The notes below the pieces were generated by a model. The model worked only from the letters and a program-made list of their open reading frames with translations. It searched no databases and was not told the DNA's origin. Positions 8,401 through 49,446 of a DNA stretch of 64,000 bases are shown here, piece after piece (position 1 is the first letter of the stretch; each line of letters begins with the position of its first letter). Source of the DNA: Arbacia lixula (lineage: Eukaryota > Echinodermata > Echinoidea > Arbacioida > Arbaciidae); NCBI GenBank assembly GCA_963669155.1, contig OZ022587.1, positions 18,676,694-18,740,693 on the forward strand, written 5' to 3'. The position numbers and the translations under genes were made by a program.

Positions 8401-9454
8401 TAACTACTTTGTAGAAAATAATGAAATATTAGGTAACACCATTATTTCTTTGTCAAAAAAAAAACAATAGAAAAGGGGAATTTATGGAATTATACAGCAC
8501 TTAACACTGGGCAGAGCATCTTGCATGTGTCGTTACAAAATTAAAACTTAAAAAACATGGATTTTGTATTCTTTGACAGCTTTTCATCAAATTTTAATTG
8601 ATATGTTGTTTTCATTTTTCTGCTTAAATTAATACCAATTTAACAGCAAGGTGGAATTTTCCATTAATTTGTTTTCTCTGTCAGTTTCACATCTTACAAA
8701 CAGTTTGTATGTCCTTGGGATTCATGCTTTATTTCACAGATTTTTATTGCCAGAGGGATACAATGCCTAACGTGCATTGATCCATGTACCCTTTGTGCAA
8801 TAAAGCCTTCATCATTAATTCCACAATGCAGTGCACCTCATACATGCAGTTTTCATTGTTCGTATACAATATTTGTAACAATGAACCTGTTGTATGAACC
8901 AATTGACATGCATTTCATTTACCAGTAATGAAAATGATAAAGATGGACTGATCACATATAGTGCATTGAGGAAATTGACTTGTGTACTGGAAATATGCTG
9001 TGTTTCAAAAGTTTGTTGAACTTCTAGTCCACTCAGATGCTGTTGTGCAACCATACAAAAAAAAAATACTTGGGAAGAAGAATAGGCATTCAATTTATTC
9101 TCACGTCAAGGCTGTGGACATTTTTTTTTACCGCTTGTCTCACGACTACAACTGCTTTTCATACTGAATACCCAAACACATACACTAGACATTCTTGTGT
9201 TATGTTTGTGACATAGTGAGAAAGAGAATGAGAGGTTAGCTTGATTCTTGTTTGATCTGACTTAGTTGTAATTGCCATGCAAGACAAAAATCACAGCTTA
9301 GAGCTGAGACTAGGATTACTGTGAAATGTAATCTGAGTCATGTCCAGAACTTACCCAGGATGTGGTTTTATAGGTTATTCATTCTTATGTAAAGGATTAT
9401 ACTTTACATAGGAGAGAGAGAGAGAGAGAGAGTGTGTGTGTGTATGTGTGTACA

Positions 9455-9487
<33 letters not shown>

Positions 9488-9704
9488 GAGAGAGAGAGTG
9501 AGAGAGAGGGACAGACAGACATACAGAGAGAGATAGAGGCAGAGATAGAAAGACGGAGAGAGACAGAGAGAGACACGGAGAAAGGGAGAGACAGAGAGAG
9601 ACAGAGAGAAACAGGCAGAGATAGATAGTGAGAGAAAGAGAGAGTGTGTGAGAGAGAAAGAGAGAGGGAGATATAGAGAGAAGTGAAGAGTGACACAGAC
9701 AGAG

Positions 9705-9758
<54 letters not shown>

Positions 9759-15065: not shown

Positions 15066-15105
<40 letters not shown>

Positions 15106-15675
15106 TCTCACTCTCTCTCTCTCATTCTCCCTCTCTCTTTCTCTCTCTCTTTGTCCTACTTCATTCTGGAAGTGTATGTCCTCCTAAAATACACTCTCTC
15201 CATGTAGCTCCTGCTCTGTCTTTTCCTATTGCGGTCCCTTTGCTTCTTCCTGTCTCTCTTCTTATATTTCCATCTCTTCCATCTGTATATGTCATGGTAA
15301 TTTGCTGCACTGTGTCCTAGTCTCTGCAGTCTTCCCTCGCTACCTCACTCAGCTTGTCCCAGCTCCCTCACCATCTCTCAACCTCACTTGTTCCCTCACT
15401 CTTATTCTTAACTCTCTTTCTAACAGTGTTCATAGTAGCTACCTTTCGACAAAATAAGCACACCATTTGTAGCAATTTTGCTGATATAGATGTTTGTTTT
15501 GGTAATATTTTATTGAATGGTATATGCACATAGATTCTGTCTCTCTGCCAGGGAGGTGAAAAGAGACCTTCTGCTCTGCCTCAGTCTCTCTGTCTCTGTT
15601 TCTCTTTCTGTGTCTCTCTATCCAGCTCCACCTCTTCTCCTTTCTCTCCCCGCCTTCTACTCTCACTATCTCCCC

Positions 15676-15731
<56 letters not shown>

Positions 15732-24700: not shown

Positions 24701-27700
24701 TGATGGTTCATATTCAGATAAGTATAATGATTTCTAATTATAGTAATAATGATATAACCATGCCAAGACCATGATAACGATGATAATTCTAGCCACTAAA
24801 AAACATAAATTTGATAGAAAGAACTCATGATTAATCACATATATTTTCTTGTTATTGTAACCGAGTAATACCGATATTATGTAAAATAATGGGAAAACTC
24901 TTTTGTTGTTGAGAAACCTGGAGCATGTTGTTGAGAAAGCTGGTTTTTAACTTTATGGGTAGAGCAAGCAGCAGTGATCACAGCAGGAGCTCTCATGAGG
25001 TGTGCCTAGAACTTGCACGGTTGACAATGTTGGACCAGTACATCTCTCTCTTGAACCAGAGACCTGCATAGCAATGTGTATGACAACACCACCTTCGGTA
25101 CTCTATATAAAGTACAATTTCTATTATTATTATTATTTAGGTCGAAATAAAGTGTATTGAAAAGTGAATTGAATTATCATTCTTATACTATCTTCTCCAT
25201 CTTGCAGTGGTCTAGACAGTCTGTCCAGCCTGACGTGTGTCAAGCTGCTGAAGAGTCTTGCCCATGGGGGCAGGACAGTCATCTGCACTATACACCAACC
25301 CAGCGCCAAGCTCTTTGAAATGTTTGATAAGGTGAACAACTCTCTATGCTACACTGCCCTACTCTGACAAAAGGAAGCAAGTGACATATCACTCAAATCT
25401 GGGTTATTGGTATTCTTAGATTGTACCCAGCATTCCCTACATAGGCCTACAGCCAAAATCTGGACAAGAAATATTCATCTTGCTGCGAGATATTCTGTCT
25501 AGCATGATGTGGTGTTGCACTGATGGCAATGCAAGTGACAGACACATTTTGCTCACTTACAAGAAAACTCTCTTTTGTTAGTTGCTTCCTTTTGTCAGAG
25601 TAGGGAAGTATAGTTATGCCTTATCATCGGTAGCATCATCAGCTTGTAACCCTCTCTTTCCTGAGCCTGATGTATGTGGGCTAGCTTTTTCCACTCAGAT
25701 ATTAAGCAGTACACAGACCTGCCAACCAGTACGATTTAGTCGGACTTAGTACGATTTTTAGAAGTGAATACGACAGTACAATTTTCCTTTTAAAAATATG
25801 ATTCTCAATTTTTTTTAAAATCTTATTTTGTGTGTGTGCCATATTCAATGGCGAAATGCCTAATATTCTGTTTTGTAAAGTATCCTACCAGCATCTCACA
25901 TTGGCAATTTGGGGATGTTCATTGGTTCATGGAACACGCCAGTCATGACAAAATCGTGCATATTCAACCAATGCTCCATAAAAAATGCTCCATGTAGGAA
26001 CTGTTAGAGGCATTGATCCAGGCTTTTTTTTTAAATACAACTTCTTTGATTAAAGAATACAGTTTTTGAACTCCAGACGTTGGCAGGTCTGGAATTAATA
26101 ACATACGGTGTAAATTACTACAAAATAAAGTTCACAATTCTTGAGATACTCTGTAGGAGTATACATGACAGTTAAGAGTAGGATTTTTTGTCTGAAAATA
26201 GGATTTTTATGGTAAAATCATTGAATTTTTGGTCAAGCGAGGTTGGCAGCTCTGAGTACAAGTCCCATACAATCTGCTCCTCAGACAATAGACACCAGAC
26301 TAGGAATAAACTTCAAATACCTTGTAGGAAACATGTAAGCCACCTCCCTTTCGTAACTGCAGTTCTACTGCATCTTTTGTCATCCTATACCAGGGTTCAC
26401 AAAGCCAGAAAAGCTAACTGTGAGCAACAGGGTAATATATGCATGTGTAATTATATAATTAGTGAAGTGAAAATATGGTATTGAAATTGAACTATTCCAT
26501 TGATTTTTCAGTTGTACATCTTGGGTGAGGGCCACTGTTTGTACAGAGGACCAGTAAAAAGCCTTGTCCCGTATCTCAAGAGCATGAACTTCGTTTGCCC
26601 ACCGTATCACAACCCTGCTGACTTTGGTAAGTCTATTTGCACACTTGAGTGTGCCAGTTAATCCATATTCTATGAGATTTGTAGAGTAGTATTCATTGCC
26701 TAAAACAAGATTAGTTTTGGCCTACGCAGCCACGGTACAGCTTGTGTATGCTATTATTAAGAATAGGTGAATATCAATTATAAATAGTTGTTCCTTAATG
26801 AAGGAAACATTAAGCAACTGTGTGTTGGTTCCTTGAGGAATATCTAGAGAGCTCACACAGAAATGCTGGACTGCTATCAAATTGTTGGCAAATTGCTATT
26901 CTCAGTGCAAGGGAACTACTATTTGATAAATAAAAATTGCATAATATTGTTTTGCATTTGAGTAGACAAGTCTTTTCCCAAACGACTTCTCTTTTAGCCC
27001 AATCACAGGTTTGGAAATAAATAATAATAATCGGTTCTTATGTAGCGCTTTCCTAGTATGAAGTACTACCCAAAGAGCTTGATTATTACTCTAGTTTTAG
27101 CCAAGCAAGCAGCCAAGTATGTAGCGCTAAAAGCTATTTGATCTTATTAGACCAGGAATACTGTATTCCTGCCAGGTACCCATTTACTACATATACTACA
27201 CCTGGGTTGAGAGAGACAAACATGAGCAAAACATCTTGTCTTGTCTTGTATGCACCGGGCTGGGCTTGAACCCAGGATCTCTCTGCGAGAGTCAAGGCCT
27301 CTCACCACTATACCACAGTGCCCTCATATGAAATATCATTCCATGGCCAGATATTTCAGTCACCTAAAAGTGTGCCTTTGTTCTTGCAGTGATTGAGCTG
27401 GCTTCGGGTGAGTATGGAACCGCGATGGAGCAGATGATTGCAGCATGCACTAATGGTCAGTGCGAGCGCTTCAATGCTCAGGGGAGCGAGTCTTCCCTGC
27501 AAGGGGCCGTAGGAGGAGTGGGCGTGGCCGTTGCTAACGGTCACTCGCCACCGGTCGTCTGCCAGGCCACCAACGGGCGGGCCACGGTGGTCATACAGGA
27601 CTCGGACGGAATCAGCACCAAGACTGTGACGGTCAGTGATATAAACCTTCTCACTGCCATGGGCATTAATCTCTGTTGAGATTACAGTCATTATTTTTAA

Positions 27701-30700
27701 TGAGAGAGTTAAATCTGATATAACCTTAGTATTTATTTTTGCTGTGCATGATCTGTAAAAGAAGTATTTGGGCCTTGTTGTATTTCCATTCTGCTAACTG
27801 ATGTATAAAAAACTTGTTGATACTTTTTTCATATTTAATATTGATATCATACAGAATCAATGTCAAGGTTATAATGTGACTTACTGCTTTTCAGACCTAA
27901 GGAAACATACATAATTGCAATTCCTAGGAAGAAAGTCATACAATGTTTTTTTAAATTAAATCACCATGTGGCCATAAAGACTGCCAATGGCCAGTGGGCC
28001 AGTGGGCCTGTTGTGTTAACCCTATCTAGCCCGGGGGTGGGGGGGGGGGGGGGGCAAAAACAGCCCCCCCCTCGACATTTTTCGCAATATATTTGTAACG
28101 CGAAAAGCGATGTTTCATGACTTTTTTCCTTCAAATCTCTCGCAACTTTTAAGACCAAAATTGCGTCGCGGGGGTACGCGGTTCCGTAGTTACGTAACAT
28201 TTTGTACGTGCATGTCAGACCAAAAATTGCTCAAAAACGTGATTTCATGTACAAATCCAATGCAAATTCTGTATCTAGCCAAAATTCATAAATGTATCAT
28301 TATCTTTAGGTTTACTGATGAAAAACAATTAATTTCATGTTATTTATGACTGAAATAGTGTTGCCAATGTTTTCCATTGAAAAAACAATGGAAACCATAA
28401 AGTCGAAAAAAGAAAGAAATACATAAGAAATTAAAAAAAACAATAATATACATAAGAAAAACGTTGATATTTCAATTTGTTAAAATCGTAATTTAATAGT
28501 AATCCTAAGAAGAGTGTCTGGACTGAAATCTAGCCGTTTTGGGGCTATATTTAAAGATTTACAACCAAATTATGATTTTATGCATTTAATTAGCATAATT
28601 AATTAATTAAAAATAAATTTGAATAATTTTGGTGCAATTGACAATTGAATTGTGGAGATTACGTCATCGGCGATGTACGTGCCAATTTTCGTCGCGATCG
28701 CGCGATCAACGGTCGAGATCTTAGGGGGGGGGGGCTGTTTTTGCCCCCCCCCCCCGGGCTATGCGATTTCAAAATAGCCCGGGCTATATACCGTAGGGTT
28801 AAATATCAGAGCTGCCAAGTCACCCTGATATGGCAGGAGACTCCCTGAAAGTAACCCAATGGTACCACACTGGATTTCATCACATTACCCAATCTCCCTG
28901 ATTATTGATAGATTATTGCCATTCGGTTATATGCATTTGATAGACATCTCCCTGATTTCTGATGAAATTCCCCCAAATCTTCCTGATTTTTAAATTTCAA
29001 TGTTGGTATCTCTGAAATATTCATATGATTCTTGTCACATTGAATTCTCACAGCCGGATAACAAATTCCCTGATTTTCTGACGACCTCGTTTGGGACGGA
29101 TGTCTTCACGCAGTTCTGGGTGCTCTTCAAGCGTACCTTCCTCACTATCTTCAGGGATCCAGTGAGTAGACCCGGGGGGTGCTGTCCTATACATGCAGTG
29201 GGTTTACATGAAGTGCTGCTTTGCAGGATTTATGTACATTAATTGTGCACAAAATTCCACAATGGAACATAAAGAAATATCTAAATTAATATATTGTTCT
29301 TTGAATATACTTCTGATTTACTTCACAATCTTTCCCAACAAGCCTAGCTTCTCTAAAGTTCCTTTTTCCCCATGATATTTAGATGTAACCGTTCAAAATA
29401 TATGCTGTTTATGATATTTATGCCTCTGCAACAAAGTTGCTGGATGGCATTATTACATGACACTTGAGTGGCATACTTAAGTTGTATTTATTTGCATTTT
29501 TATTACTGTCATATTGTATAAGTGCATATCTGCATTATTTGTATAACGAGTGTGGAAAAGGATTCAATACAATCATCCATTTGTCTGCCAGATAAAGAGC
29601 TGCTCTATGGAAATTGTGTGTATAGAGTACCGAAGTATGACGTCATTTGAGCATTATTGTCACGACAACTGGTTCTTAACAACACGGGTAGAGCAAGCAG
29701 CAGTGATCACATTGGAGACTGTCATTGGGAATGTCCGACACTAGCCCGCTAGACAATATCGGACCGCTAAACCTCTCTCTGGAGTGAGTTTGTGTAGAGC
29801 CAATTGTTTTGACAGCATGCTCATAGCACGACACCACTTCGGTATTCTATGACCTGTGCAAAAATGATTCATGATGTCTCCCTCTCTTGACAGACTCTGA
29901 CCCACACCCGGTTCTCAGCTCATGTGGCCATCGGTGTACTCATTGGCCTTCTCTATCTGAACATTGGTGATGATGCAGGGAAGGCCTTCAACAACGCAGG
30001 GTTCCTCTTTCTTTCCATGCTGTTTCTCATGTTCTCTGCCATGATGCCTACAGTGTTATCATGTGAGTGGAAGGGCGCACAGCGTAGAGTATGTCTCTCA
30101 ATGCCAAGGTCATTGGTTCCAGTCCCAACCAAGTCCTTGCAAAAGTGCCAGTGTTGTGTTTATGCGCGCAACCCCCCTTTGTGGGAAAACATAGGACATT
30201 AACTGTAGGTCCCATGTATGGAAGAGGCACTCTCTATGCACCCCACTTCACCGCTCAATTACGATCAGAGTGAAAACTTGGGCCCCATTGCATAAAACTT
30301 ATCATTGATGGTAACTTTGCTTCCAGCGTCAACTTCTATTGAATTTGATTGGCCGTTGAGCGATGTTACCATGGAAGTTACCATTGATGACAGAGTTACC
30401 ATTAATGGTAAGTTTTATGCAAGGGGGCCTAGGTGGAGTGGACAGTAAGTCTAAACTGTAAAAAGGGTGAGAGATGCCGATCCCTAGTGGTTCACCCCAT
30501 AAGGCTATTTAGCCTTCAAACAATATCAAACAGGCATTAAGAGTGCCATAAGTATAATGATAACATGTGAGTGGTTGAGACTACAGATACTTGGAATGGA
30601 GATTGCAGGTTCCAGTCCCAGTATAGCACTTTTATCCTTCCATGTCATGTGTCACATGGTTTTGAAGAATGTGCTTTCAATAATGCATGATTGCTATCTT

Positions 30701-30839
30701 TATGTCTGTCTGTCTCTTTCTCTTTCTCTCTTTCTATCTCTTTCTCTTTTTCTATTTCTCTCTCTTTCTCTCTCTTTTTCTCTTTCTCTCTTTCTCTCTC
30801 TGTCTCTTTCTCTCTCTTTCTCTCTCTGTCTCTTTCTCC

Positions 30840-30891
<52 letters not shown>

Positions 30892-31006
30892 TTCTCTTTC
30901 TCTCTCTTTCTCCCCTCTCTCTCTCTCTCTCTTCCTTTCTCCCTTTTTCTTTCTCTCTCTTTCTCTCTCTTTCTTTCTTTTTCTCTCTCTCCCTTTCTCT
31001 CTTTCT

Positions 31007-31065
<59 letters not shown>

Positions 31066-34000
31066 CTCTGTTGTTCATGATCTCTCCCATAATGCCTATA
31101 ATATTATCCTGTTAGTGGAAGGTGGTTACATGGTGCAGTGATTGAGCCTAAAGATACTTAGAATAGAGATTACTGGTTCAAAGCCAAATATGGCACTTTG
31201 ATCCTTTCATGTAATGTTAGTACAAAACAGTTGCATTATTTATTATATATTTATGGACATACTTCTCAAAGTGCCCAATTTTCTAATAAAGTTACACACT
31301 GATTTTCAGACCCTGATCCAACAATCTACTCGTCTGCAGACAGGCAATGTTCCAGAAGCTCATTGCCTGATGTACAAAAATCCATTGTATTTGCTACTGT
31401 TATTAATGTTGTTTGTTATTACTCAAATACATGTGTTTCTTTCCATGGGCTCTGTTTTGAACATTTAAAAATCAATAAAAACATGGTTGAATGTACTTTC
31501 ACTGCATCATATTTGTTTACCTTCATCTTTAACAAGTCAATTTATTCTTCATTTGTTGTGATCGTGGTGCACATAACCAGATGTCAAACATGCTTGCATG
31601 AATTTACTTATGCATTTTGTAACAACTGACCAGGGATATATTGTTTTTTCAAAAAGTACAATTATGGAATTTCTTTTATTCTTCATACACAGTTCCTCTT
31701 GAGATGAATGTGCTGATAAGAGAACACTTGAACTATTGGTACAGTCTTAAGTCATACTACATCGCAAAAATGGTTGCAGATCTACCATTCCAAGTAAGTA
31801 TTATTGCTAGGTATTCATCATCACGCATTGTTCAACCATTGTTGGATGACGCCCTCCTCAATCATTTTCCATTTGCTTCTATCTGCTGTCATTCTGTTCC
31901 ATGTTGCTGTGTTTGTGTTTGTTGGTATTTCGTCTCTCCACCTTCTCTTTTGTCGGCCCCTTCTTTGCTTGCCTGTTCTTGGTTGCCACTCTGTGAGTTT
32001 CTTGGTCCATCTGTTGGCTTGTATTCTATATCAGTGTCCTGCCCATCTCCATTTCATCTCTTTAATTTTTATTATAATATCTCTGAACTTGCTAGTTATT
32101 GATGTGTTCTAAACCCTTTATATACGAGGCAAACAAATTCTCTATTATATTCACCAGTAAAAAAAATACACACATAGGACATACAGAGTAAAAGAAAGGT
32201 CCTTGCGTGGGGAATAGAGTTAATGACATTTCATGGTACACAATGCCTTTGCCCTTAAAAGCGTGTGCTCTCCAAGCAGTTCCTTCAGATTGCAATCAAT
32301 TACAATTACAGCTTTTCAGTCCATGGTTATTTTTAGCTGTCTTGCGAGATAAAAATTCTTCGGTAGGGTTGAGTAAAGCTATGAAGCTGTACACTATTAC
32401 TTCATATGTGTTATTTTATCGCAAATGTATTGTATGTAATCTTTGATTGTTTGGAAATAGAAGACAAACATCATATAGTTAAAGTTGCGTTAGCAACCAT
32501 ATTTTTAGAAAGGCACCCCTTCAATAAAAAATATATTTCCCTTCAATATCTTTTTTTCTTTTTCAAATAATTTTTTAAACTTATTTTTAAGTAAACTGTA
32601 CACAATGCCACCTACTCATGAAGACCACACTTCTCTTGCCTTCATTCTATACGGATGTTACTGTAATAGTCTTCAACTTTCTTTTCCTCTAGATACTGAT
32701 GCCAACTGTTTACTGCACCATTGTGTGAGAGATTGTGTGAGATGTCACTGTAATAGTCTTCAACTTTCTTTACCTCCAGATACTCATGCCTACTGTGTGC
32801 TGCACCATTGTGTGAGAGATTGTGTGAGGTGTCACTGTAATAGTCTTCAACTTTCTTTTCCTCTAGATACTAATGCCTACTGTGTGCTGCACCATTGTGT
32901 GAGAGATTGTGTGAGGTGTTACTGTAATAGTCTTCAACTTTCTTTTTCTCCAGATACTGATGCCTACTGTGTAAGAGATTGTGTGAGATGTCACTGTAAT
33001 AGTCTTCAACTTTCTTTACCTCCAGATACTGATGCCTACTGTGTAAGAGATTGTGTGAGATGACACTGTAATAGTCTTCAACTTTCTTTTCCTCCAGATA
33101 CTGATGCCTACTGTGTAAGAGATTGTGTGAGATGTCACTGTAATAGTCTTCAACTTTCTTTACCTCCAGATACTGATGCCTACTGTGTAAGAGATTGTGT
33201 GAGATGTCACTGTAATAGTCTTCAACTTACTTTTCCTCCAGATACTGATGCCTACTGTGTACTGCACCATTGTGTAAGAGATTGTGTGAGATGTCACTGT
33301 AATAGTCTTCAACTTTCTTTACCTCCAGATACTGATGCCTACTGTGTAAGAGATTGTGTGAGATGTCACTGTAATAGTCTTCAACTTACTTTTCCTCCAG
33401 ATACTGATGCCTACTGTGTAAGAGATTGTGTGAGATGTCACTGTAATAGTCTTCAACTTACTTTTCCTCCAGATACTGATGCCTACTGTGTACTGCACCA
33501 TTGTGTGAGAGGTTGTCTGTGATGTCACTGTAATAGTCTTCAACTTTCTTTTCTTCCAGATACTGATTCCTACTGTGTAAGAGATTGTGTGAGATGTCAC
33601 TGTAATAGTCTTCAACTTTCTTTTTTCTCCAGATACTGATGCCTACTGTGTACTGCACCATTGTGTAAGAGATTGTGTGAGATGTCACTGTAATAGTCTT
33701 CAACTTTCTTTTCCTCCAGATACTGATGCCTACTGTGTACTGCACCATTGTGTGAGAGATAACGTGAGATGTCACTGTAATAGTCTTCACATTTCTTTTC
33801 CTCCAGATACTGATGCCTACTGTTTACTGCACCATGGTGTGAGAGATTGTGTGAGATGTCACTGTAATAGTCTTCAACCTTCTTTTCCTCCAGATACTAA
33901 TGCCTGCTGTGTGAGAGATTGTTTGAGATGTCACTGTAATAGTCTTCAACTTTCTTTTCCTCCAGATACTGATGCCTACTGTGTACTGCACCATTGTGTG

Positions 34001-37000
34001 AGAGATTGTATGAGATGTCACTGTAATAGTCTTCAACTTTCTTTTCCTCCAGATACTGATGCCTACTGTGTACTGCACCATTGTGTGAGAGATTGTATGA
34101 GATGTCACTGTAATAGTCTTCAACTTTCTTTACCTCCAGATACTGATGCCTACTGTGTAAGAGATTGTGTGAGATGTCACTGTAATAGTCTTCAACCTTC
34201 TTTACCTCCAGATACTGATGCCTACTGTGTACTGCACCATGGTGTGAGAGATTGTGTGAGATGTCACTGTAATAGTCTTCAACTTTCTTTTCCTCCAGAT
34301 ACTGATGCCTACTGTGTAAGAGATTGTGTGAGATGTCACTGTAATAGTCTTCAACTTACTTTTCCTCCAGATACTGATGCCTACTGTGTAAGAGATTGTA
34401 TGAGATGTCACTGTAATAGTCTTCAACTTTCTTTACCTTCAGATACTGATGCCTACTGTGTAAGAGATTGTGTGAGACGTCACTGTAATAGTCTTCAACT
34501 TTCTTTACCTCCAGATACTGATGCCTACTGTGTACTGCACCATTGTGTAAGAGATTGTGTGAGATGTCACTGTAATAGTCTTCAACTCTCTTAACCTCCA
34601 GATACTGATGCCTACTCTGTACTGCACCATTGTGTGAGAGATCGTGTGAGATGTCACTGTAATAGTCTTCAACTTTCTTTTCCTCCAGATACTGATGCCT
34701 ACTCTGTAAGAGATTGTGTGAGATGTCACTGTAATAGTCTTCAACTCTCTTAACCTCCAGATACTGATGCCTACTGTGTACTGCACCATTGTGTGAGAGA
34801 TTGTGTGAGATGTCACTGTAATAGTCTTCAACTTTCTTTACCTCCAGATACTGATGCCTACTGTGTACTGCACCATTGTGTGAGAGATTGTGTGAGATGT
34901 CACTGTAATAGTCTTCAACTTTCTTTTCCTCCAGATACTGATGCCTACTGTGTGAGAGATTGTGTGAGATGTCACTGTAATAGTCTTCAACTTTCTTTTC
35001 CTCCAGATACTGATGCCTACTGTGTGAGAGATCGTGTGAGATGTCACTGTAATAGTCTTCAACTTTCTTTTCCTCCAGATACTGATGCCTACTGTGTAAG
35101 AGATTGTCTGAGATGTCACTGTAATAGTCTTCAACTTTCTTTTCCTCCAGATACTGATGCCTACTGTGTACTGCACCATTGTGTAAGAGATTGTGTGAGA
35201 TGTCACTGTAATAGTCTTCAACTTTCTTTTCCTCCAGATACTGATGCCTACTGTGTGAGAGATTGTGTGAGATGTCACTGTAATAGTCTTCAACTTTCTT
35301 TTCCTCCAGATACTGATGCCTACTGTGTGAGAGATTTTGTGAGATGTCACTGTAATAGTCTTCAACTTTCTTTACCTCCAGATACTGATGCCTTCTGTGT
35401 ACTGCACCATCGTGTGAGAGATTGTTTGAGATGTCACTGTAATAGTCTTCAACTTTCTTTTCCTCCAGATACTGATGCCTACTGTGTGAGAGATTGTGTG
35501 AGATGTCACTGTAATAGTCTTCAACTTTCTTTTCCTCCAGATACTGATGCCTACTGTGTGAGAGATCGTGTGAGATGTCACTGTAATAGTCTTCAACTTA
35601 CTTTTCCTCCAGATACTGATGCCTACTGTGTACTGCACCATTGTGTGAGATGTCACTGTAATAGTCTTCAACTTTCTTTCCCTCCAGATACTGATGCCTA
35701 CTGTGTAAGAGATTGTGTGAGATGTCACTGTAATAGTCTTCAACTTTCTTTTCCTCCAGATACTGATGCCTACTGTGTAAGAGATTGTCTGAGATGTCAC
35801 TGTAATAGTCTTCAACTTTCTTTTCCTCCAGATACTGATGCCTACTGTGTACTGCACCATTGTGTAAGAGATTGTGTGAGATGTCACTGTAATAGTCTTC
35901 AACTTTCTTTTCCTCCAGATACTGATGCCTACTGTGTGAGAGATCGTGTGAGATGTCACTGTAATAGTCTTCAACTTTCTTTTCCTCCAGATACTGATGC
36001 CTACTGTGTAAGAGATTGTATGAGATGTCACTGTAATAGTCTTCAACTTTCTTTTCCTCCAGATACTGATGCCTACTGTGTGAGAGATTGTGTGAGATGT
36101 CACTGTAATAGTCTTCAACTTTCTTTTTTCTCCAGATACTGATGCATATTGTGTAGTGCACCATTGTGTAAGAGATTGTATGAGATGTCACTGTAATAGT
36201 CTTCAACTTTCTTTACCTCCAGATACTGATGCCTACTGTGTAAGAGATTGTGTGAGATGTCACTGTAATAGTCTTCAACTTTCTTTTCCTCCAGATACTG
36301 ATGCCTACTGTGTACTGCATCATCGTGTGAGAGATTGTGTGAGATGTCACTGTAATAGTCTTCAACTTTCTTTTCCTCCAGATACTGATGCCTACTGTGT
36401 ACTGCACCATTGTGTGAGAGATTGTGTGAGATGTCACTGTAATAGTCTTCAACTTTCTTTACCTCCAGATACTGATGCCTACTGTGTACTGCACCATTGT
36501 GTAAGAGATTGTGTGAGATGTCACTGTAATAGTCTTCAACTTTCTTTACCTCCAGATACTGATGCCTACTGTGTACTGCACCATTGTGTAAGAGATTGTG
36601 TGAGATGTCACTGTAATAGTCTTCAACTTTCTTTTCCTCCAGATACTGATGCCTACTGTGTACTGCACCATTGTGTGAGAGATTGTATGAGATGTCACTG
36701 TAATAGTCTTCAACTTTCTTTTCCTCCAGATACTGATGCCTACTGTGTAAGAGATTGTGTGAGACGTCACTGTAATAGTCTTCAACTTTCTTTACCTCCA
36801 GATACTGATGCCTACTGTGTACTGCACCATTGTGTAAGAGATTGTGTGAGATGTCACTGTAATAGTCTTCAACTTTCTTTTCCTCCAGATACTGATGCCT
36901 ACTGTGTACTGCACCATTGTGTGAGAGATTGTGTGAGATGTCACTGTAATAGTCTTCAACTTTCTTTTCCTCCAGATACTGATGCCTACTGTGTAAGAGA

Positions 37001-40000
37001 TTGTGTGAGATGTCACTGTAATAGTCTTCAACTTTCTTTTCCTCCAGATACTGATGCCTACTGTGTACTGCACCATTGTGTGAGAGATCGTGTGAGATGT
37101 CACTGTAATAGTCTTCAACTTTCTTTTCCTCCAGATACTGATGCCTACTGTGTAAGAGATTGTGTGAGATGACACTGTAATAGTCTTCAACTTTCTTTTC
37201 CTCCAGATACTGATGCCTACTGTGTAAGAGATTGTGTGAGATGTCACTTTAATAGTCTTCAACTTACTTTTCCTCCAGATACTGATGCCTACTGTGTACT
37301 GCACCATTGTGTGAGAGATTTTGTGAGATGTCATTGTAATAGTGTTCAACTTTCTTTTCCTCCAGATACTGATGCCTACTGTGTACTGCACCATTGTGTG
37401 AGAGATTTTGTGAGATGTCATTGTAATAGTCTTCAACTTTCTTTTCCTCCAGATACTGATGCCTACTGTGTAGTGCACCATTGTGTGAGAGATTTTGTGA
37501 GATGTCACTGTAATAGTCTTCAACTTTCTTTTCCTCCAGATACTGATGCCTACTGTGTAAGAGATTGTATGAGATGTCACTGTAATAGTCTTCAACTTTC
37601 TTTACCTCCAGATACTGATGCCTACTGTGTAAGAGATTGTGTGAGATGTCACTGTAATAGTCTTCAACTTTCTTTTCCTCCAGATACTGATGCCTACTGT
37701 GTACTGCACCATTGTGTAAGAGATTGTGTGAGGTGTCACTGTAATATTAATCAACTTTCCTTTCCTCCAGATACCGATGCCTACTGTGTACTGCACCATT
37801 TTGTAAGAGATTGTGTGAGATGTCACTGTAATAGTCTTCAACTTTCTTTTCCTCCAGATACTGATGCCGACTGTGTAAGAGATTGTATGAGATGTCACTG
37901 TAATAGTCTTCAACTTTCTTTTCCTCCAGATACTGATGCCTACTCTGTACTGCACCATTGTGTGAGAGATTGTGTGAGATGTCACTGTAATAGTCTTCAA
38001 CTTTCTTCTCCTCCAGATACTGATGCCTACTGTGTGAGAGATTGTGTGAGATGTCACTGTAATAGTCTTCAACTTTCTTTCCCTCCAGATACTGATGCCT
38101 ACTGTGTAAGAGATTGTGTGAGATGTCACTGTAATAGTCTTCAACTCTCTTAACCTCCAGATACTGATGCCTACTGTGTAAGAGATTGTGTGAGATGTCA
38201 CTGTAATAGTCTTCAACTTTCTTTTCCTCCAGATACTGATGCCTACTGTGTAAGAGATTGTGTGAGATGTCACTGTAATAGTCTTCAACTTTCTTTTCCT
38301 CCAGATACTGATGCCTACTGTGTGAGAGATTGTGTGAGATGTCACTGTAATAGTCTTCAACTCTCTTTTCCTCCAGATACTGATGCCTACTGTGTACTGC
38401 ACCATTGTGTGAGAGATTGTATGAGATGTCACTGTAATAGTCTTCAACTTTCTTTACCTCCAGATACTGATGCCTACTGTGTAAGAGATTGTGTGAGATG
38501 TCACTGTAATAGTCTTCAACTTTCTTTTTTCTCCAGATACTGATGCCTACTGTTTACTGCACTATTGTGTACTGGATGACAGGCCAACCTCATGACGGGG
38601 GAAGGTTTACACTATTTGTGTCCATGGCAGTCTCAACATCGCTGGTGGCACAGTCTTTAGGGTTGATCATAGGTGCAGGCCTGCCGTTGGAGGTGAGTTG
38701 TCTAGTTTGTTTTTCAGTGTGTTCACATAAAGAACCAAAGTGGTGTCGTCATATGAGCATGTTGTCAAGACAATTGGCTCTAAACAAACTCACTCCAGCG
38801 AGAGGTTTAGCGGTCCGATATTGTCTAATGGGCTAGTGTCGGGCATTCCCAATTACGGTCCACGCTGTGATCACTGCTGCTTGCTCTACCCGCATTGCTT
38901 AACTATTTGTCTTGACAATAATGCTCAAGTGACGTCACACTTCGGCACTCTATTGAAGCAGTAGTGGTGGGTGCATTCACACTGTGTCTCCATTGTGAGG
39001 TAGAGCTGAAAGATTTTTAATTTAGAATTGCACCACCACAAAGAGTGAGCCACAAGATATATTTACTAATTTTGCAATTGATGGCAAGTTAGCAATTTAT
39101 TGCAACGTTTGGTATCACAAAACCATCATTGCTATATCAGGGGTGGATCCAGAGAGGGGGCCAAAGGGGCCGCGACCCCCCCCCCCCTTTCCCAGACATT
39201 CTTGAGCGGTTGGTTGGGGCACACTCGACTACAGATTGACAGAACCATGGCCATATTTCTGAACAGGAATGGGAGCTGGTCTCCGGCTCCCCTTTTCACA
39301 AATCCTGGATCTGGGGGGTGTTTCACCAAGCTGTTCGGAAGTTACGAACAACTTTACGAACGACTGGTGATCCCTTCTTGTGCTGAATTAGATTCTCAAT
39401 GAACAAAGTGTGGTATCGCATTTAGCACAAGACGGGATCACCAGTCGTTCGTAAAGTGGTTCGTAACTTATGAACAGCTTGGTGAAAGGCCCCCCTGTCC
39501 CTGTATAAACAAGGTGTCCCAGAAAAAAGGAAACCCGTTTTTCGAGGTCGTTAACGTAATCCTAAAATATCATATTATTATAAAAATAGCAGCAATATCG
39601 AGAGTAAAGTATCTTCTTTTGTTTGGTACCAAATTCACGATGAATTGTTCACGCATGACTGATTTCAAGCAATTACGAGTGCTCGATGTCAGAAACGTTT
39701 TGCGCAGAGTAACGAATGCTGTTTGCACTACGTCGATGCTTCCTTACAAATTTTGACCATTTGTCCTGCGTAAATTGATTTTGACAATTATTTTTTAAGC
39801 ACCTGTTGCTCCTCAACGCATGACTCTTATCTATCATGTGAGGTGTCAAATGAAAGAGGAAACACCATGCTTTCTAATGATGTGTATAATATTCCATGAT
39901 TTTTTTCAGTCAACTAGAGAAATTACACAGAATCTCGGTTTCCTTTTTTCTGGGACACACTGTATATTGCAAATCCTAGCCAAGGTAGGCCGATATTTTG

Positions 40001-40655
40001 CAATCAAGGATATTGATCCTCACAAGCTACAATTCATATCAATTGCAAGTTATGATTGTTGTATTTTTCTGATACAGATTGATCATTTGTGAAATTAATA
40101 AATCAGTCATTTGATTGATCTACTGATCATAGAATCAATTACTCTTCTTTGTTATACAGGACCCAGTGCGTGTGGCAAAGAATAGAAATCCTATTTTGTG
40201 TATCCCATGAACGATCTTTATATGAAGGTTCTACTGTGTACCAGTCCTTTAGATATCGTCTGCTGTTTCAGATGAAAGTATGATCCCTTTCCCCATTCCA
40301 TCACTAGGTGGCGGTGTTTGTCGGCCCAGTTTCCAGTATCCCGATCCTGCTTTTCTCAGGATTCTTCGTCACCCTGGACAACATCCCGGACTACCTGCAG
40401 TGGATGTCCTACGGCTCCTTCGTCCGCTACTCCTACGAGGGCGTCATGATCTCCGTCTACGGCCTTGACCGAGGCGAGATCCCCTGTGAGAGCCAAGAGG
40501 TCTGCATCTTCCACACGGCCCAAGACATTCTGGACGAACTGGACATTGGCTCCGACAACCTCAAGCTAGACTTTGGTGTCTTGCTCGTGTTCTTTATTGT
40601 GCTACGTGTCATCTGTTACTTCATTCTCCGTGCGAAGGTCAAGCGTGTGTTTTAA
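5292..40655 (+). CDS. ABCG1/4: ABCG1/ABCG4-type ABC half transporter (12 exons)
   Basis: Join of 5292-5486, 12522-12639, 20848-21037, 24271-24416, 25208-25331, 26512-26626, 27390-27631, 29054-29161, 29894-30062, 31693-31793, 38537-38692 and 40308-40655. All introns are GT..AG and the phases match; from the ATG at 5360 the product is 647 residues, close to vertebrate ABCG4 (about 646) and ABCG1 (about 678). Residue positions from that Met: Walker [10 protein letters not shown] 65-73, Q-loop Q111, signature ISGGQ 166-170, Walker B IMFFDE 186-191, D-loop SGLD 194-197, switch His223, then six predicted helices (about 399-415, 425-446, 475-495, 502-530, 536-556, 621-639). The order, N-terminal cassette then membrane domain, is typical of ABCG. 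Family knowledge: ABCG1 and ABCG4 act as dimers in sterol export to lipoproteins; substrate here is inferred. Several phrases (LFEMFDKLYIL, YWMTGQP) look slightly nearer ABCG4, but ABCG1 versus ABCG4 orthology is not resolved. Confidence 0.95.
5360..5362 (+). other. ABCG1/4: Candidate ABCG start codon
   Basis: ATG in context CTCAAGATGGCC, with purine at -3 and G at +4. It gives a 647-residue product. The upstream part of the exon is also open, so an N-terminal extension from a missing exon cannot be excluded. Confidence 0.5.
5885..6410. repeat. Dispersed repeat with internal tandem duplication
   Basis: A segment of about 125 bp containing GTCTCTAGGCTACAGAACTG and GTGGGAGGGAAGTT occurs twice in tandem (about 6155-6281 and 6286-6408). 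The whole block, from AGGAATCAGCAGTA near 5904, has a diverged sibling at about 48960-49315 with the same order of landmarks (GGAATCAGCAGTA, GTCTCTAGG, CGGACGACC, GGGAGGGAAGTTC). It is probably an interspersed repeat of unknown class. Confidence 0.7.
6671..7078 (+). pseudogene. Broken acidic ORF, possible gene or transposon fragment
   Basis: From 6671 there is a 105-codon open frame rich in Asp and Glu ([17 protein letters not shown]) that ends with [11 protein letters not shown] and a stop near 6987. A shifted frame continues with [18 protein letters not shown] and TENW, up to a donor-like GTATGT at 7079. The stretch between about 6720 and 7078 has protein-like composition and is not low-complexity DNA. 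No in-frame ATG supports a start, so it looks like a decayed exon. The layout (acidic stretch, then YRxEPE, then ..NSTENW before a splice) is reminiscent of repetitive invertebrate proteins carrying a Cys-rich P2X7-type C-terminal domain, but this is a weak inference. Confidence 0.3.
9413..9755. repeat. GA / GT microsatellite
   Basis: GAGA runs, a TGTG block (about 9432-9488), then GAGA and GACA repeats ending in a pure GA run at about 9715-9755. The open frames on both strands here are repeat artefacts. Confidence 0.95.
10754..11180. mobile_element. Non-autonomous TIR element rich in GCTAGC
   Basis: The left end GGTGCATCTTCATTGGCCC and the reverse complement of the right end, GGTGTCTTCATTAAGCCC, are imperfect terminal inverted repeats. 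Both subterminal regions contain repeated AGCTAGCTA and AAATAGC motifs in opposite orientation. There is no transposase frame. It is probably a MITE-like or decayed DNA transposon. Confidence 0.6.
12125..12350 (+). repeat. Dispersed repeat shared with 25.7-26.4 kb
   Basis: Landmarks GGGCTAGCTTTTTCTACTCAG, CCAGACAATAGA, AAGCCACACCCCTTTGGTTAC and GGTTCACAAAGTCAGAAA recur in the same order at 25680-25713 and 26265-26415. That second copy is split by an inserted element. The open frame over this segment is not conserved between the copies, so I do not call it coding. Confidence 0.65.
12522..12639 (+). CDS. ABCG1/4: ABCG exon B: Walker A
   Basis: The acceptor is CTCCTTCAG and the donor is TACAA|GTACGT. 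It encodes [20 protein letters not shown] continuing through the P-loop GPSGAGKSS (residues 65-73), which binds the ATP phosphates. It enters in phase 1, completing a Glu codon, and leaves in phase 2. The exon matches the ABCG1/4 segment ending LAGYK. Confidence 0.95.
12746..13290 (-). mobile_element. Retroposon 3' end with ATCAA-type tail
   Basis: Read on the minus strand, the segment ends with GGAAAAATAAATCAAATCAA, that is an AATAAA signal and a short pentamer repeat, as in many LINE or SINE 3' ends. A 118-codon minus-strand frame (13289-12933) lies in it, but I do not recognise the product and it could be chance. The 5' limit is uncertain. Confidence 0.45.
13747..13899. mobile_element. Palindromic MITE, family 1 copy (ACTTACCATTRATGGTAA type)
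   Basis: The outer arms TTTCATAAAACCTACCA and, inverted, TTTCATAAAACTTACCATTG form terminal inverted repeats, and the interior carries GGTAACTACCATGGTAAC. Related copies lie at 30282-30431 and 40716-40872. There is no coding capacity. Confidence 0.75.
13900..13950 (+). repeat. Partial duplicate of ABCG exon B in its own downstream intron
   Basis: GCTGAGAAGTCATCCTTCAT followed by GAATGTTTTGG is nearly identical to the end of exon B (GCTGGCAAGTCATCCTTCAT, GAACGTCTTGG). It is followed by a donor-like GCAAGTAAC. It lies about 1.3 kb after the true exon, directly beside a MITE, and no acceptor precedes it, so it is a relic and not an alternative exon. Confidence 0.75.
14365..14598. mobile_element. 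Palindromic MITE, family 2 copy 1
   Basis: The left arm (CAGCTCAAAGGAATTGGCAT, then AGGGAAAGGAAAAGG, then TAGTTCAGCATGAAACA) is mirrored by the right arm (TGTTTCATGCTGAACTGGAC, CCTTTCCCTTTCCCTATGCC, ATTCCTTTGAGCT). Copies also lie at 19109-19341 and 44189-44429. No open frame; probably a non-autonomous DNA transposon. Confidence 0.85.
14827..15155. repeat. CT microsatellite
   Basis: CTCT repeats with CCCT and TTTC interruptions. The 181-codon Ser/Leu frame across it is low complexity. Confidence 0.93.
15680..15735. repeat. CT microsatellite
   Basis: An almost pure CT run with one CTAT interruption. Confidence 0.93.
16419..17904. mobile_element. 1.5 kb TIR element without recognisable transposase
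   Basis: The left end CTCAGCGTAGCACTACAATT and the inverted right end CTCAGCGTAGCACTATAATT differ at one of 20 positions. The interior is AT-rich with some CpG-rich parts and has no long open frame on either strand, so it is probably a non-autonomous DNA transposon. I could not define a clear target-site duplication. Confidence 0.75.
18270..18450 (-). mobile_element. MITE, family 3 copy 1 (internally deleted)
   Basis: Shares CTCTGACCTTCAAATTTCAC, GTGCAAACTTTCATGAAG and GGGACGGTCCATCTTTAA with the longer copies at 45712-46044 and 55580-55925. The other end (TTTAAAGGTAGCCCGTCC) is present but the middle half is missing. Confidence 0.75.
18563..18793. mobile_element. MITE, family 4 copy 1
   Basis: Closely matches 25357-25605 (shared ATCTGGGTTATTGG, CTTGCTGCGAGATATTC, GATGTGGTGTTGCACTGATG). 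The right end GTTGCTTCCTTTTGTCAGA is intact, while the left terminal repeat is decayed. Confidence 0.8.
19109..19341. mobile_element. Palindromic MITE, family 2 copy 2
   Basis: Runs from TACACTACAACTCAAATGCA to GAGCTGTAGTGTA, with inner arms TCCAGTTCAGCATGAAACAT and ATGTTTCATGCTGAACTGGT around a short loop. Confidence 0.88.
20550..20812 (+). mobile_element. Retroposon 3' tail ending in a GAATCTT repeat
   Basis: A T-rich untranslated-type segment ends in AAAATTGAATCTTGAATCTC and TTGAATCTT repeats, as in some LINE 3' tails. The 5' limit and family are uncertain. The tail stops about 35 nt before the acceptor of exon C. Confidence 0.4.
20848..21037 (+). CDS. ABCG1/4: ABCG exon C: region between Walker A and signature, with Q-loop
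   Basis: The acceptor is TCCTCTTCAG and the donor is GCTGCG|GTAAGAAC. It enters in phase 2 and leaves in phase 0. It encodes residues 83-145, including the Q-loop in [20 protein letters not shown] (Q111) that couples the cassette to the membrane domain. The 3' end of this exon and its donor are duplicated several times in the following intron. Confidence 0.95.
21005..21404 (+). repeat. Tandem copies of the exon C 3' end plus its splice donor (period 132-133 bp)
   Basis: The exon end (GGATGAAGTGGAGTGAGAAG, AAAGCTGCG) with the donor GTAAGA and the next ~95 bp of intron is repeated in tandem. Donors stand at 21038 (true), 21171 (GCTGTG|GTAAGAAAG) and 21303 (GCTGCG|GTAAGAAAG), so the period is 133 then 132. 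The intronic part (GATAGACTGATTAACAGATA) is also near-identical in all three. Use of a later donor would read into TGA six codons after the normal boundary. Confidence 0.92.
21399..21662 (+). repeat. Older, diverged copies of the exon C 3' half
   Basis: At 21399-21485, CCCATCTCATCGTCAGGGAA to GTGAGAAGCGAGCTGCGGTA resembles about 90 nt of exon C including the donor. At 21556-21662, CTCTTTTGCCCTATTTTATG, GAAGCTATGTACATGGCAGC and AACGCTGCTGTAGTAAAG is a second decayed copy. Both have lost the reading frame. Confidence 0.75.
21663..23610 (+). other. Middle of ABCG intron C-D, no gene seen
   Basis: AT-rich sequence with a poly-C run near 21811-21828 and a GATA run at about 21968-21992. I recognise no exon or mobile element here. 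Confidence 0.5.
23611..23970 (+). repeat. Three diverged tandem copies of the exon D acceptor side
   Basis: The copy at 23890-23970 repeats the acceptor and exon start almost exactly (ATTGCTGTTTTAG|ATTGATG), then decays (GATTTGATGGATTGT, AGACCAGAACATCTC). The copy at about 23751-23815 keeps GAGATCATAAGCCTGCTGGG. The copy at about 23611-23678 keeps CTGATTGAGGATATGAAACC. All three are followed by a shared spacer with TTGTATGAAATAGT or close variants. A read-through from the nearest copy hits TAG after 16 codons. Confidence 0.78.
24036..24242 (+). mobile_element. MITE, family 5 copy 1, just upstream of exon D
   Basis: Ends AAGCTGCCAAGTC and, inverted, CCAGAGCTACCAACATTG. It shares GGATTTCATCACAT, CCCAATCTCCCTGATTATTG and CATCTCCCTGATTTCTGATG with 28807-29014. 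It ends 28 nt before the exon D acceptor. Confidence 0.82.
24271..24416 (+). CDS. ABCG1/4: ABCG exon D: ABC signature and Walker B
   Basis: The acceptor is GCTGTTTTAG and the donor is CACAAG|GTATTG. Residues 146-193 contain the signature [13 protein letters not shown] and Walker B IMFFDEPT; Asp190 and Glu191 are the Mg-binding and catalytic acids. It enters in phase 0 and leaves in phase 2, with Ser194 split across the junction. The upstream intron carries decayed copies of this acceptor. Confidence 0.97.
24417..25207 (+). other. ABCG intron D-E
   Basis: AT-rich sequence with a left-truncated family 6 MITE at about 24918-25106. Nothing else recognised. Confidence 0.55.
24918..25106. mobile_element. 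MITE, family 6 copy 1 (left-truncated)
   Basis: Shares GGGTAGAGCAAGCAGCAGTG and the end CACCTTCGGTACTCTAT with the copies at 29622-29850 and 38727-38953. The left terminal repeat is missing. Confidence 0.75.
25208..25331 (+). CDS. ABCG1/4: ABCG exon E: D-loop and switch histidine
   Basis: The acceptor is CATCTTGCAG and the donor is GATAAG|GTGAAC. It completes the SGLD D-loop (194-197) and carries [20 protein letters not shown] with switch His223. Residues 195-235; it leaves in phase 0. Confidence 0.96.
25357..25605. mobile_element. MITE, family 4 copy 2 with perfect terminal inverted repeats
   Basis: Starts CCCTACTCTGACAAAAGGAA and ends with its exact inverted match TTCCTTTTGTCAGAGTAGGG. 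It is 249 bp and non-coding. The first copy is at 18563-18793. Confidence 0.88.
25714..26092. mobile_element. TIR element inserted in a dispersed repeat
   Basis: Ends CAGACCTGCCAAC and GTTGGCAGGTCTGG, which are inverted copies. It separates two parts of a repeat that is continuous at 12125-12350. The ends resemble those of the family 5 MITEs (AGCTGCCAA), so the two may share a mobiliser. Confidence 0.72.
26512..26626 (+). CDS. ABCG1/4: ABCG exon F: end of the nucleotide-binding domain
   Basis: The acceptor is GATTTTTCAG and the donor is ACTTTG|GTAAGT. It encodes [13 protein letters not shown] and [10 protein letters not shown] (residues 236-273), matching the ABCG1/4 segment after the H-loop. 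It enters in phase 0 and leaves in phase 1. Confidence 0.95.
26627..27389 (+). other. ABCG intron F-G
   Basis: Contains a tRNA-derived SINE in antisense orientation (27007-27330) near its 3' end; otherwise no feature seen. Confidence 0.6.
27007..27330 (-). mobile_element. tRNA-derived SINE
   Basis: On the minus strand, near 27323, there is an A-box-like TGGTATAGTGG and about 40 nt later a B-box GGTTCAAGCCC, the internal RNA polymerase III promoter of tRNA-type SINEs. The body includes AAATGGGTACCTGGCAGG and ends GCGCTACATAAGAA followed by an ATT-rich tail, which resembles widespread animal SINE 3' ends. It lies opposite to the host gene. Confidence 0.85.
27390..27631 (+). CDS. ABCG1/4: ABCG exon G: linker between cassette and membrane domain
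   Basis: The acceptor is TTCTTGCAG and the donor is GTGACG|GTCAGT. It starts with the conserved ELASGEYG and continues into a Gly/Val/Ala-rich linker ([14 protein letters not shown]) that is unlike the vertebrate ABCG1/4 linker, as expected for this variable region. Residues 275-354; phase 1 in, phase 0 out. It is GC-richer than its surroundings. Confidence 0.93.
28016..28802. mobile_element. TTAA-flanked, piggyBac-type non-autonomous TIR element
   Basis: TTAA (28016-28019), then CCCTATCTAGCCCGGG; at the other end AGCCCGGGCTATATACCGTA, GGG, then TTAA (28799-28802). Next to each end is a G/C homopolymer with CAAAAACAGCCCCCC or its inverse. Duplicated TTAA and CCC..GGG termini are typical of piggyBac-type elements. 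There is no transposase frame. Confidence 0.8.
28807..29014 (+). mobile_element. MITE, family 5 copy 2, just upstream of exon H
   Basis: CAGAGCTGCCAAG to TTGGTATCTCTG, with the same interior as 24036-24242. It begins 4 nt after the TTAA of the neighbouring element. Confidence 0.82.
29054..29161 (+). CDS. ABCG1/4: ABCG exon H: entry to the membrane domain
   Basis: The acceptor is ATTCTCACAG and the donor is GATCCA|GTGAGT. It encodes [20 protein letters not shown] within residues 355-390, the conserved amphipathic segment (QFxxLFKRTF) before the first helix. It is 36 codons, phase 0 at both ends. Confidence 0.95.
29162..29893 (+). other. ABCG intron H-I
   Basis: AT-rich, with a family 6 MITE (29622-29850) near its 3' end. 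Nothing else recognised. Confidence 0.55.
29622..29850. mobile_element. MITE, family 6 copy 2
   Basis: Ends ATAGAGTACCGAAGTATGAC and CACCACTTCGGTATTCTAT form terminal inverted repeats. The interior shares CGGGTAGAGCAAGCAGCAGT with 24918-25106 and, inverted, with 38727-38953. It ends 44 nt before exon I. Confidence 0.85.
29894..30062 (+). CDS. ABCG1/4: ABCG exon I: first two membrane helices
   Basis: The acceptor is CTCTTGACAG and the donor is TTATCAT|GTGAGT. It encodes helix 1 ([16 protein letters not shown], residues about 399-415) and helix 2 ([20 protein letters not shown], about 426-445). It leaves in phase 1, splitting the Phe of the conserved LxFPLE motif. Its 3' end and donor are copied downstream. 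Confidence 0.96.
30063..30200 (+). repeat. tRNA-like SINE fragment at the exon I donor
   Basis: CGCACAGCGTAGAGTATG, followed by GGTTCCAGTCCC, resembles weak A and B boxes. Similar sequences follow the duplicated exon I ends at 30569 (GGTTCCAGTCCC) and 31122 (GTGCAGTGATTG then GGTTCAAAGCC). A decayed tRNA-derived SINE is likely but not certain. Confidence 0.5.
30282..30431. mobile_element. Palindromic MITE, family 1 copy 2
   Basis: Outer arms CCATTGCATAAAACTTATCA and TTAATGGTAAGTTTTATGCA are inverted repeats, with inner GCGATGTTACCATGG. Same family as 13747 and 40716. Confidence 0.85.
30545..31108 (+). repeat. Duplicated exon I 3' ends with donor sites
   Basis: At 31073-31108, TTCATGATCTCTCCCATAAT, GCCTATAATATTATC and CTGTTAGTGGAAGG follow the end of exon I and its donor (CATGTTCTCTGCCATGATGC, CTACAGTGTTATC, ATGTGAGTGGAAGG) over almost 50 nt. 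At 30551-30573 a shorter copy keeps GCCATAAGTATAATGATAAC and ATGTGAGTGG, including an intact GTGAGT donor. The CT microsatellite sits between them. Confidence 0.72.
30700..31068. repeat. CT microsatellite
   Basis: About 370 bp of CTCT and TTTC repeats, ending in an uninterrupted CT run. Open frames in all registers here are artefacts. Confidence 0.95.
31693..31793 (+). CDS. ABCG1/4: ABCG exon J: loop and start of helix 3
   Basis: The acceptor is CATACACAG and the donor is TTCCAA|GTAAGT. It completes F447 and encodes [20 protein letters not shown] and the [13 protein letters not shown] segment (residues 448-480), one of the best conserved stretches of ABCG1/4. It leaves in phase 0. Confidence 0.97.
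31794..32653 (+). other. ABCG intron J-K, part before the tandem array
   Basis: AT-rich and T-rich unique-looking sequence. No exon or mobile element recognised. Confidence 0.55.
32654..38536 (+). repeat. 74-unit tandem array of a duplicated 3' splice site and exon K start
   Basis: After a partial unit (32654-32692), 74 full units run from 32693 to 38536: 34 of 87 bp, 36 of 72 bp, 3 of 73 bp and 1 of 75 bp, which sum exactly to 5844 bp. Each unit begins ATACTGATGCCTACTGTGTA (with few variants) and ends in a pyrimidine tract plus AG (TTTCTTTTCCTCCAG). The 87-bp form carries 15 more bases (CTGCACCATTGTGTG). Unit starts match the first 34 nt of exon K with two mismatches in the long form, and exon K begins at the next unit boundary, 38537. 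In the ABCG frame, each unit stops at TAA, TAG or TGA within 7 to 12 codons. The array fills most of the intron. Confidence 0.98.
38537..38692 (+). CDS. ABCG1/4: ABCG exon K: helices 3 and 4
   Basis: The acceptor CTTTTTTCTCCAG is the last boundary of the tandem array; the donor is TTGGAG|GTGAGT. It encodes [17 protein letters not shown] (helix 3) and [20 protein letters not shown] (helix 4), residues 481-532, phase 0 at both ends. Where the array units stop, the exon reads through with TACTGGATG. Confidence 0.96.
38727..38953. mobile_element. MITE, family 6 copy 3 (opposite orientation)
   Basis: Shares, inverted, CACTGCTGCTTGCTCTACCCG and GGCTAGTGTCGG-type interior with 29622-29850. Its left end ATAAAGAACCAAAGTGGTGT is a diverged terminal repeat. 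It starts 34 nt after the exon K donor. Confidence 0.8.
39313..39497. mobile_element. Palindromic MITE-like element
   Basis: The left arm (GGGTGTTTCACCAAGCTGTT, then ACGAACGACTGGTGATCCC) is mirrored by the right arm (GGGATCACCAGTCGTTCGTA, then GAACAGCTTGGTGAAAGGCC). About 185 bp, non-coding. Confidence 0.82.
40308..40655 (+). CDS. ABCG1/4: ABCG exon L: helix 5, extracellular loop, helix 6 and stop
   Basis: The acceptor is TCCATCACTAG and the TAA stop is at 40653-40655. It encodes [18 protein letters not shown] (helix 5), the conserved YLQWMSY, a loop with Cys in [12 protein letters not shown], and the final helix [20 protein letters not shown] before KVKRVF. The end near Arg/Lys is typical of ABCG1/4. 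Residues 533-647. Confidence 0.97.
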   Translation: MAVFVGPVSSIPILLFSGFFVTLDNIPDYLQWMSYGSFVRYSYEGVMISVYGLDRGEIPCESQEVCIFHTAQDILDELDIGSDNLKLDFGVLLVFFIVLRVICYFILRAKVKRVF

Positions 40656-49438: not shown

Positions 49439-49446
49439 CACAAATG

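Follow-up and report, generated by a model that had tools for sequence, protein, structure and literature searches.

What happens to splicing when the acceptor of an exon is repeated dozens of times in the intron before it? This question is raised by a stretch of 64,000 nucleotides (nt) from the sea urchin Arbacia lixula (assembly GCA_963669155.1, contig OZ022587.1, positions 18,676,694 to 18,740,693; hereafter the window), in which the intron between exons J and K of an ABCG1-like transporter gene carries 74 tandem decoys of the exon K acceptor (the K array). We conclude that the array is quite probably a near-neutral, locus-specific minisatellite and an extreme example of the boundary duplications called mirages in amphioxus, one that is tolerated by the gene and in which the last acceptor is presumably picked by exon definition.

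Results

A tandem array of decoy acceptors adjoins exon K

The ABCG1-like gene was placed as 12 coding exons (A-L), set by hand at AG and GT sites; its 5′ end was not found within the window. Joined, the exons give a single open frame with 0 stops over 669 codons. The product contains ABC_tran and ABC2_membrane domains, and its top match in the PDB is human ABCG1 (7r8c, E 1.8e-224). The features on which the argument rests are the following, with a slash marking splice junctions here and below.

5292..40654, + strand: ABCG1-like transporter gene, coding exons A-L
31693..31793, + strand: exon J, ending DLPFQ; donor CAA/GTAAGT
32654..38536, + strand: 74 decoy 3′ splice sites in tandem, together with the intronic lead of exon K's own site; unit lengths 87, 72, 73 and 75 base pairs (bp)
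33633..33649, + strand: start of decoy 13
38537..38692, + strand: exon K (the real exon), 156 nt, ILMPTVYC...GAGLPLE; donor GAG/GTGAGT

Over 13 residues, the J-K junction region aligns without a break to DVPFQIMFPVAYC of human ABCG1. Because the human protein is contiguous across this junction, 38537 is indicated as an exon boundary, and we place the beginning of exon K there by homology, phase and splice consensus rather than from a transcript. An ABCG-like gene on contig C16 was also tried for comparison; over 20 kb it matched the query at only 2 exons and was not used.

A preliminary description of this DNA, made from the letters alone, had reported 74 units of four lengths, each with a pyrimidine tract and an intact AG, leading up to the real exon as a 75th boundary. 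These counts were reproduced exactly. There are 75 boundaries of the form AG/ATAC(T/C) between 32693 and 38537, spaced by 34 intervals of 87 bp, 36 of 72 bp, 3 of 73 bp and 1 of 75 bp, which sum to 5844; the last of them is the start of exon K as placed by homology and phase. The acceptor AG, in the form CAG or TAG, is preserved at 75 of 75, and the pyrimidine fraction at positions -20 to -5 averages 0.85 in the decoys (minimum 0.75) compared to 0.875 at the real site. A TAAT, which we take to resemble a branch point, lies 20-40 nt upstream of the acceptor at all 75. Tandem Repeats Finder called 74.8 copies at 32654-38557, the final copy reaching into exon K. The units run head to tail up to the authentic exon, with non-array intron sequence at the upstream edge and exon K at the downstream edge, and they account for 87.2% of the J-K intron (6743 nt).

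Each unit is made up of ~39 nt of intron end, 17-34 nt of the start of exon K and filler. The description's statement that every unit copies the first 34 nt of exon K held for the 35 long units (34 of 87 bp and the one of 75 bp), in which the copy is ~34 nt, and had to be given up for the 39 units of 72 or 73 bp, which are 15 bp short and carry the first 17 nt only. Its broader point held: copies of the acceptor and exon start stand directly before the real exon, and, as decoy 13 shows, nothing in the neighboring sequence singles out the last acceptor. The acceptor of this decoy agrees with the real one at every position from 64 nt upstream to 17 nt downstream. Since the two sites are identical over 81 nt, adjacent sequence cannot decide between them and the choice must use wider context.

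We also searched the 607-Mb assembly with the array unit. All 75 matches lay at the ABCG1-like locus, which speaks against a dispersed satellite or a transposon-borne repeat; this search passes over very common words, and it missed the 157-bp array described below even at its own place. COX1 from this genome, judged by eye, gives a sensible translation under the echinoderm mitochondrial code and a less sensible one under the invertebrate code.

Divergence among units and growth of the array

Mean pairwise identity among the units is 95.7%, and it decays little with distance (0.960 for neighbors, 0.945 for units 60 apart). Distinct sequences account for 49 of the 74 units, and no exact repeat inside the array exceeds 230 bp. 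Long and short units are intermixed at random (38 runs vs 37.7 expected). This pattern of similarity and order fits repeated unequal exchange. On the question of whether edge units escape homogenization, one trait of mirages, the first four units are further from the consensus than the others (mean 0.951 vs 0.975), a difference matched by 1.4% of random four-unit sets, in a comparison that was chosen post hoc and with 10 inner units also at or below 0.944. Relative to exon K, long units carry G for T at +18 (33 of 35) and C for T at +27 (35 of 35); both changes fall at third positions and are synonymous in the exon frame. Selection maintaining the AG was considered and set aside: its presence at 75 of 75 boundaries is unremarkable because many unit columns are invariant.

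We propose that the array may have been founded by a local tandem duplication of ~39 nt of intron end together with 34 nt of exon K, and that it would then have grown and been homogenized by unequal exchange or slippage within the intron. A 15-bp deletion would have produced the second unit type (72 bp), now dispersed among the 87-bp units. The duplicated segment has the motif GGATG at each of its edges (32653 and 38574), a hint of short-homology tandem duplication.

Predicted consequences of decoy use

When the ABCG frame is read through the decoys into the intron, all 74 lead to a stop after 18 or 33 nt; from the real site there is none within exon K. A GTRAG motif is present in every one of the 74 units, 17 nt past the acceptor in those of 72 or 73 bp and 32 nt past it in those of 87 or 75 bp. 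Calculated pairing with U1 for the best donor-like site of each unit ranged from -4.3 to -5.4 kcal/mol. The 11 real donors of the gene ranged from -2.8 to -10.8 kcal/mol, that of exon K being the strongest at -10.8.

In our proposed mechanism, the spliceosome would disregard the 74 decoys because exon K would be defined as a unit through its strong downstream donor and its exon body. A decoy would have no such body, offering just 17-34 nt of exon copy followed by weak GTRAG motifs. If a decoy were used, the product would meet an early stop and probably undergo nonsense-mediated decay. With decoys ignored and decoy products probably decayed, the array would be near neutral and free to drift in copy number. 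That exon definition makes the choice of the last acceptor is our guess. One study of alternative human splice sites states that exon definition favors the sites closest across the exon (PMC9225289), and the amphioxus precedent suggests, by analogy, that cells can ignore such copies.

Further boundary duplications in the ABCG1-like gene

Direct copies of exon-end sequence were found in the neighboring intron for 5 of the 12 exons: one partial copy for B, three extra donor copies for C, two acceptor copies for D, one donor copy for I and the 74 for K. Outside the K array, identity ranges from about 95% down to 69%.

13898..13931, + strand: 34-nt partial copy (85%) of sequence close to the exon B end, stopping short of the donor
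21003..21402, + strand: array of the exon C end and donor with a 132-bp unit; of its 3.0 copies one is real (donor 21038, GTAAG) and two are extra
21401-21515, + strand: third extra exon C copy, older and degenerate (69%)
23734..23966, + strand: exon D acceptor boundary, present as two older copies (~77%) of the real site at 24271
31068..31122, + strand: exon I donor boundary, an older copy at 82% that retains its GT (real donor at 30063)

Splice signals are preserved in the C copies, in the I copy and in one of the two D copies, the AG being kept at 23890 and lost at 23734. When the gene was divided into tiles, 5 of 66 near-boundary tiles were duplicated, as were 29 of 667 in introns, 0 of 16 in exon interiors and 148 of 151 in the K array; there is no clear boundary enrichment.

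Boundary duplications in myosin and kinesin genes

Myosin genes of the same genome were surveyed through the best 30 of 73 exon matches. These come from ~15 gene clusters, so the loci are not independent. Exon edges were approximated by profile edges, and acceptors and donors of both myosin and kinesin genes were called by eye from the consensus. A same-strand copy of exon sequence was present in the flank at 8 of the 30 loci compared to 0 of 30 in the opposite-strand control; at 4 of the 8, the gene runs along the minus strand. Same-strand copies were seen in 11 of 60 length-matched intronic windows, scored under a slightly different rule. In alignments judged by eye, acceptors were copied at loci L046, L053 and L054, and donors at L046, L049, L061 and L063. 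The last of these, on contig C29, has at least 5 copies of the exon edge with its donor, 95-98% alike. Two cases were weak (L036, 78% over 60 nt; L050, 84% over 31 nt), and some copies carry no signal, for example one donor copy in L049.

At locus L064 (G000:C21:15809300-15811300), a kinesin motor exon is preceded by 6 decoy acceptors spaced 105-111 bp apart. These units hold the exon start that codes for GQTGAGKT, and each decoy leads to a stop 25 codons on. Elsewhere on this contig (G000:C21:15711426-15711909), two kinesin matches cover the same profile positions (70-96) on one strand at a distance of 403 bp, perhaps a further boundary duplication.

Are exon edges singled out? Across the 30 myosin loci, 197 of 1903 flank tiles were duplicated, along with 13 of 120 at exon edges and 6 of 109 in exon interiors. 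Exon edges as duplication hot spots found no support in the comparison of edge with flank; duplication reaches both at about the same rate, and targeting need not be invoked. The simplest view is that edges are neither clearly preferred nor avoided, in a genome that is rich in local tandem duplication and tolerates edge copies, and the tile rates are as expected if duplication is general and edge copies are tolerated. Boundary duplications appear to be common in this genome, and their occurrence in three sea urchin gene families suggests a wider phenomenon.

Other features of the window

About 9 kb downstream of the ABCG1-like gene, at 49446-50563, is an array of ~7 units of 157 bp in which the motif AGGTCAAAGGTCA occurs seven times without mismatch, where 0.01 occurrences are expected. 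The motif looks to us like a direct repeat 1 (DR1) nuclear-receptor element, and genes of the ABCG1 class are regulated by nuclear receptors in vertebrates. The 157-bp array is perhaps a common repeat. Within an intron of the gene, at 6153-6406, there is a pair of ~132-bp direct repeats; similar sequence near 49205, seen by eye, suggests that this repeat is dispersed. On the minus strand, 61135-62376 holds an open frame of 413 amino acids that resembles, judging from its translation alone, a carrier of the monocarboxylate-transporter type.

Discussion

Alternative explanations of the array

Could the decoys form a functional splicing switch, whose regulated use lowers ABCG output through nonsense-mediated decay and whose copy number tunes expression? 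Such a switch would account for the in-frame stop at 18 or 33 nt after all 74 decoys, for the preservation of every AG and for the GTRAG in every unit. However, the stop stems from the sequence that the units share, so that 74 of 74 is close to a single event; the order and divergence of the units show no pattern that requires selection, and comparable duplications occur in unrelated genes. We regard a switch as unlikely. The regular position of GTRAG, 17 or 32 nt past the acceptor in 74 of 74 units, would also suit recursive or nested splicing, in which micro-exons of these lengths are removed stepwise until the last acceptor is reached. We consider this very unlikely, as the best donor-like motif of each unit pairs weakly with U1 (-4.3 to -5.4, where the gene's donors span -2.8 to -10.8) and the junction reads AG/ATAC in 75 of 75, not AG/GT. 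In classical ratchet sites, AG and GT are juxtaposed at the acceptor junction.

High-fidelity (HiFi) reads are long enough that 5.9 kb should be spanned. The published Arbacia lixula assembly was built from PacBio HiFi reads with Hifiasm (PMC11310861), the longest exact repeat inside the array is 230 bp, 49 of 74 units are distinct, and the array is bounded by non-array intron upstream and exon K downstream. All of this argues against an artefact of assembly in the array or in its length, which we hold to be highly improbable even though tandem repeats are known to cause assembly errors and one amphioxus mirage seems to have been aberrantly assembled in a draft (PMC3087553). Scarcely credible, finally, is an array that encodes a repeat protein, its units of 72 and 87 bp holding a frame open for hundreds of codons. 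Open frames do reach 462 amino acids on the + strand and 413 on the - strand, but with a unit length that is a multiple of three any stop-free unit frame stays open without coding. The + frame differs, moreover, from the ABCG frame and is broken at several points in the array, an expected effect of 73-bp units and of substitutions.

We favor, as stated at the outset, a tolerated minisatellite with the last acceptor picked by exon definition, and several points weigh against this account. By our computation, equal use of all 75 sites would give 1.3% correct splicing, and 90% correct splicing requires that each of the 74 otherwise equal decoys be used at no more than 0.0015 of the real site, a large discrimination. 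The donor of exon B, at -2.8 kcal/mol, pairs more poorly with U1 than the decoy motifs do, so weak U1 pairing alone does not silence a donor and is not decisive. Among human alternative 3′ sites the upstream one is preferred overall, a preference that is said to weaken in an exon-definition context (PMC9225289); "last wins" is thus no automatic rule. Lastly, the homology at the founding breakpoints is just 5 nt and was found by eye, and there is extra sequence at the unit junction.

Implications for exon definition

Competition between identical splice sites has usually been studied with few copies in a minigene. The K array is a natural test in a conserved gene, with 74 decoys, one of them an 81-nt match to the real site. 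Provided that splicing uses the last acceptor cleanly, the ceiling of 0.0015 for each decoy at 90% correct splicing would put a number on exon definition. We can extend this only tentatively, to a genome whose genes are riddled with boundary duplications and whose splicing picks the exon-proximal copy by at least several hundredfold over each identical decoy, with up to 74 competitors; we would give that generalization somewhat less than an even chance. If true, it would describe a lineage with a near-absolute exon-definition rule, in which the arrays would steadily supply new exons and introns. Boundary duplications may also be mishandled by gene annotation.

Comparison with known systems

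The preliminary description knew of no case with so many copies of a genuine acceptor. Its suggestion that such arrays are undescribed falls with the amphioxus mirages, which share their architecture. Mirages are tandem duplications of exon/intron boundaries (PMC3087553, PMC3902484). Two haplotypes of BflGb6 hold 6 and 3 units, and an exon end is duplicated in BflGb9. For PGBD5, two assemblies show 2 or 7 and 3 or 6 units; Adh3 and TnC are named as further cases (PMC3087553, PMC3902484). The authors concluded that mirages leave regular splicing undisturbed and that their lengths are unstable (PMC3087553, PMC3902484). In the literature that we searched, whose coverage leaves most subscription papers aside, we noticed no mirages outside amphioxus and no boundary array as long as 74 copies. 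In the accessible text of two further papers, "mirage" is the name of a transposon (PMC9071541) and Caenorhabditis elegans intronic minisatellites lie near alternative exons (PMC4039745); neither text describes boundary arrays.

Other systems share single aspects with the K array. The variable number tandem repeat of human ABCA7 is likewise an intronic tandem repeat with splicing consequences (PMC5954066). The polyubiquitin gene UBC also has splice signals in a tandem array; there, however, the repeats are coding and their AGGT sites are used, giving a variable number of monomers (PMC10809524), whereas the copies in the K array are intronic and presumably unused. Intron gain by tandem genomic duplication similarly rests on a duplication that carries splice signals as raw material (PMC3087553); in the K array an existing intron has been enlarged and no new one formed.

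The mirages remain the closest relatives. In both, an exon/intron boundary (5′ or 3′ in mirages) is tandemly duplicated beside the authentic exon and the AG or GT is kept in many copies; the mirage units measure tens to ~160 bp (PMC3087553, PMC3902484), compared to 72-87 bp here. Like a mirage, the K array has the authentic boundary in its unit, lies head to tail by the exon, keeps its signals and has homogenized units. It differs in having 74 extra copies rather than the about 2-7 given for BflGb6 and PGBD5, and in belonging to an echinoderm rather than a cephalochordate. As far as our searches show, it is an extreme case of the mirage type, in a phylum that is new for mirages.

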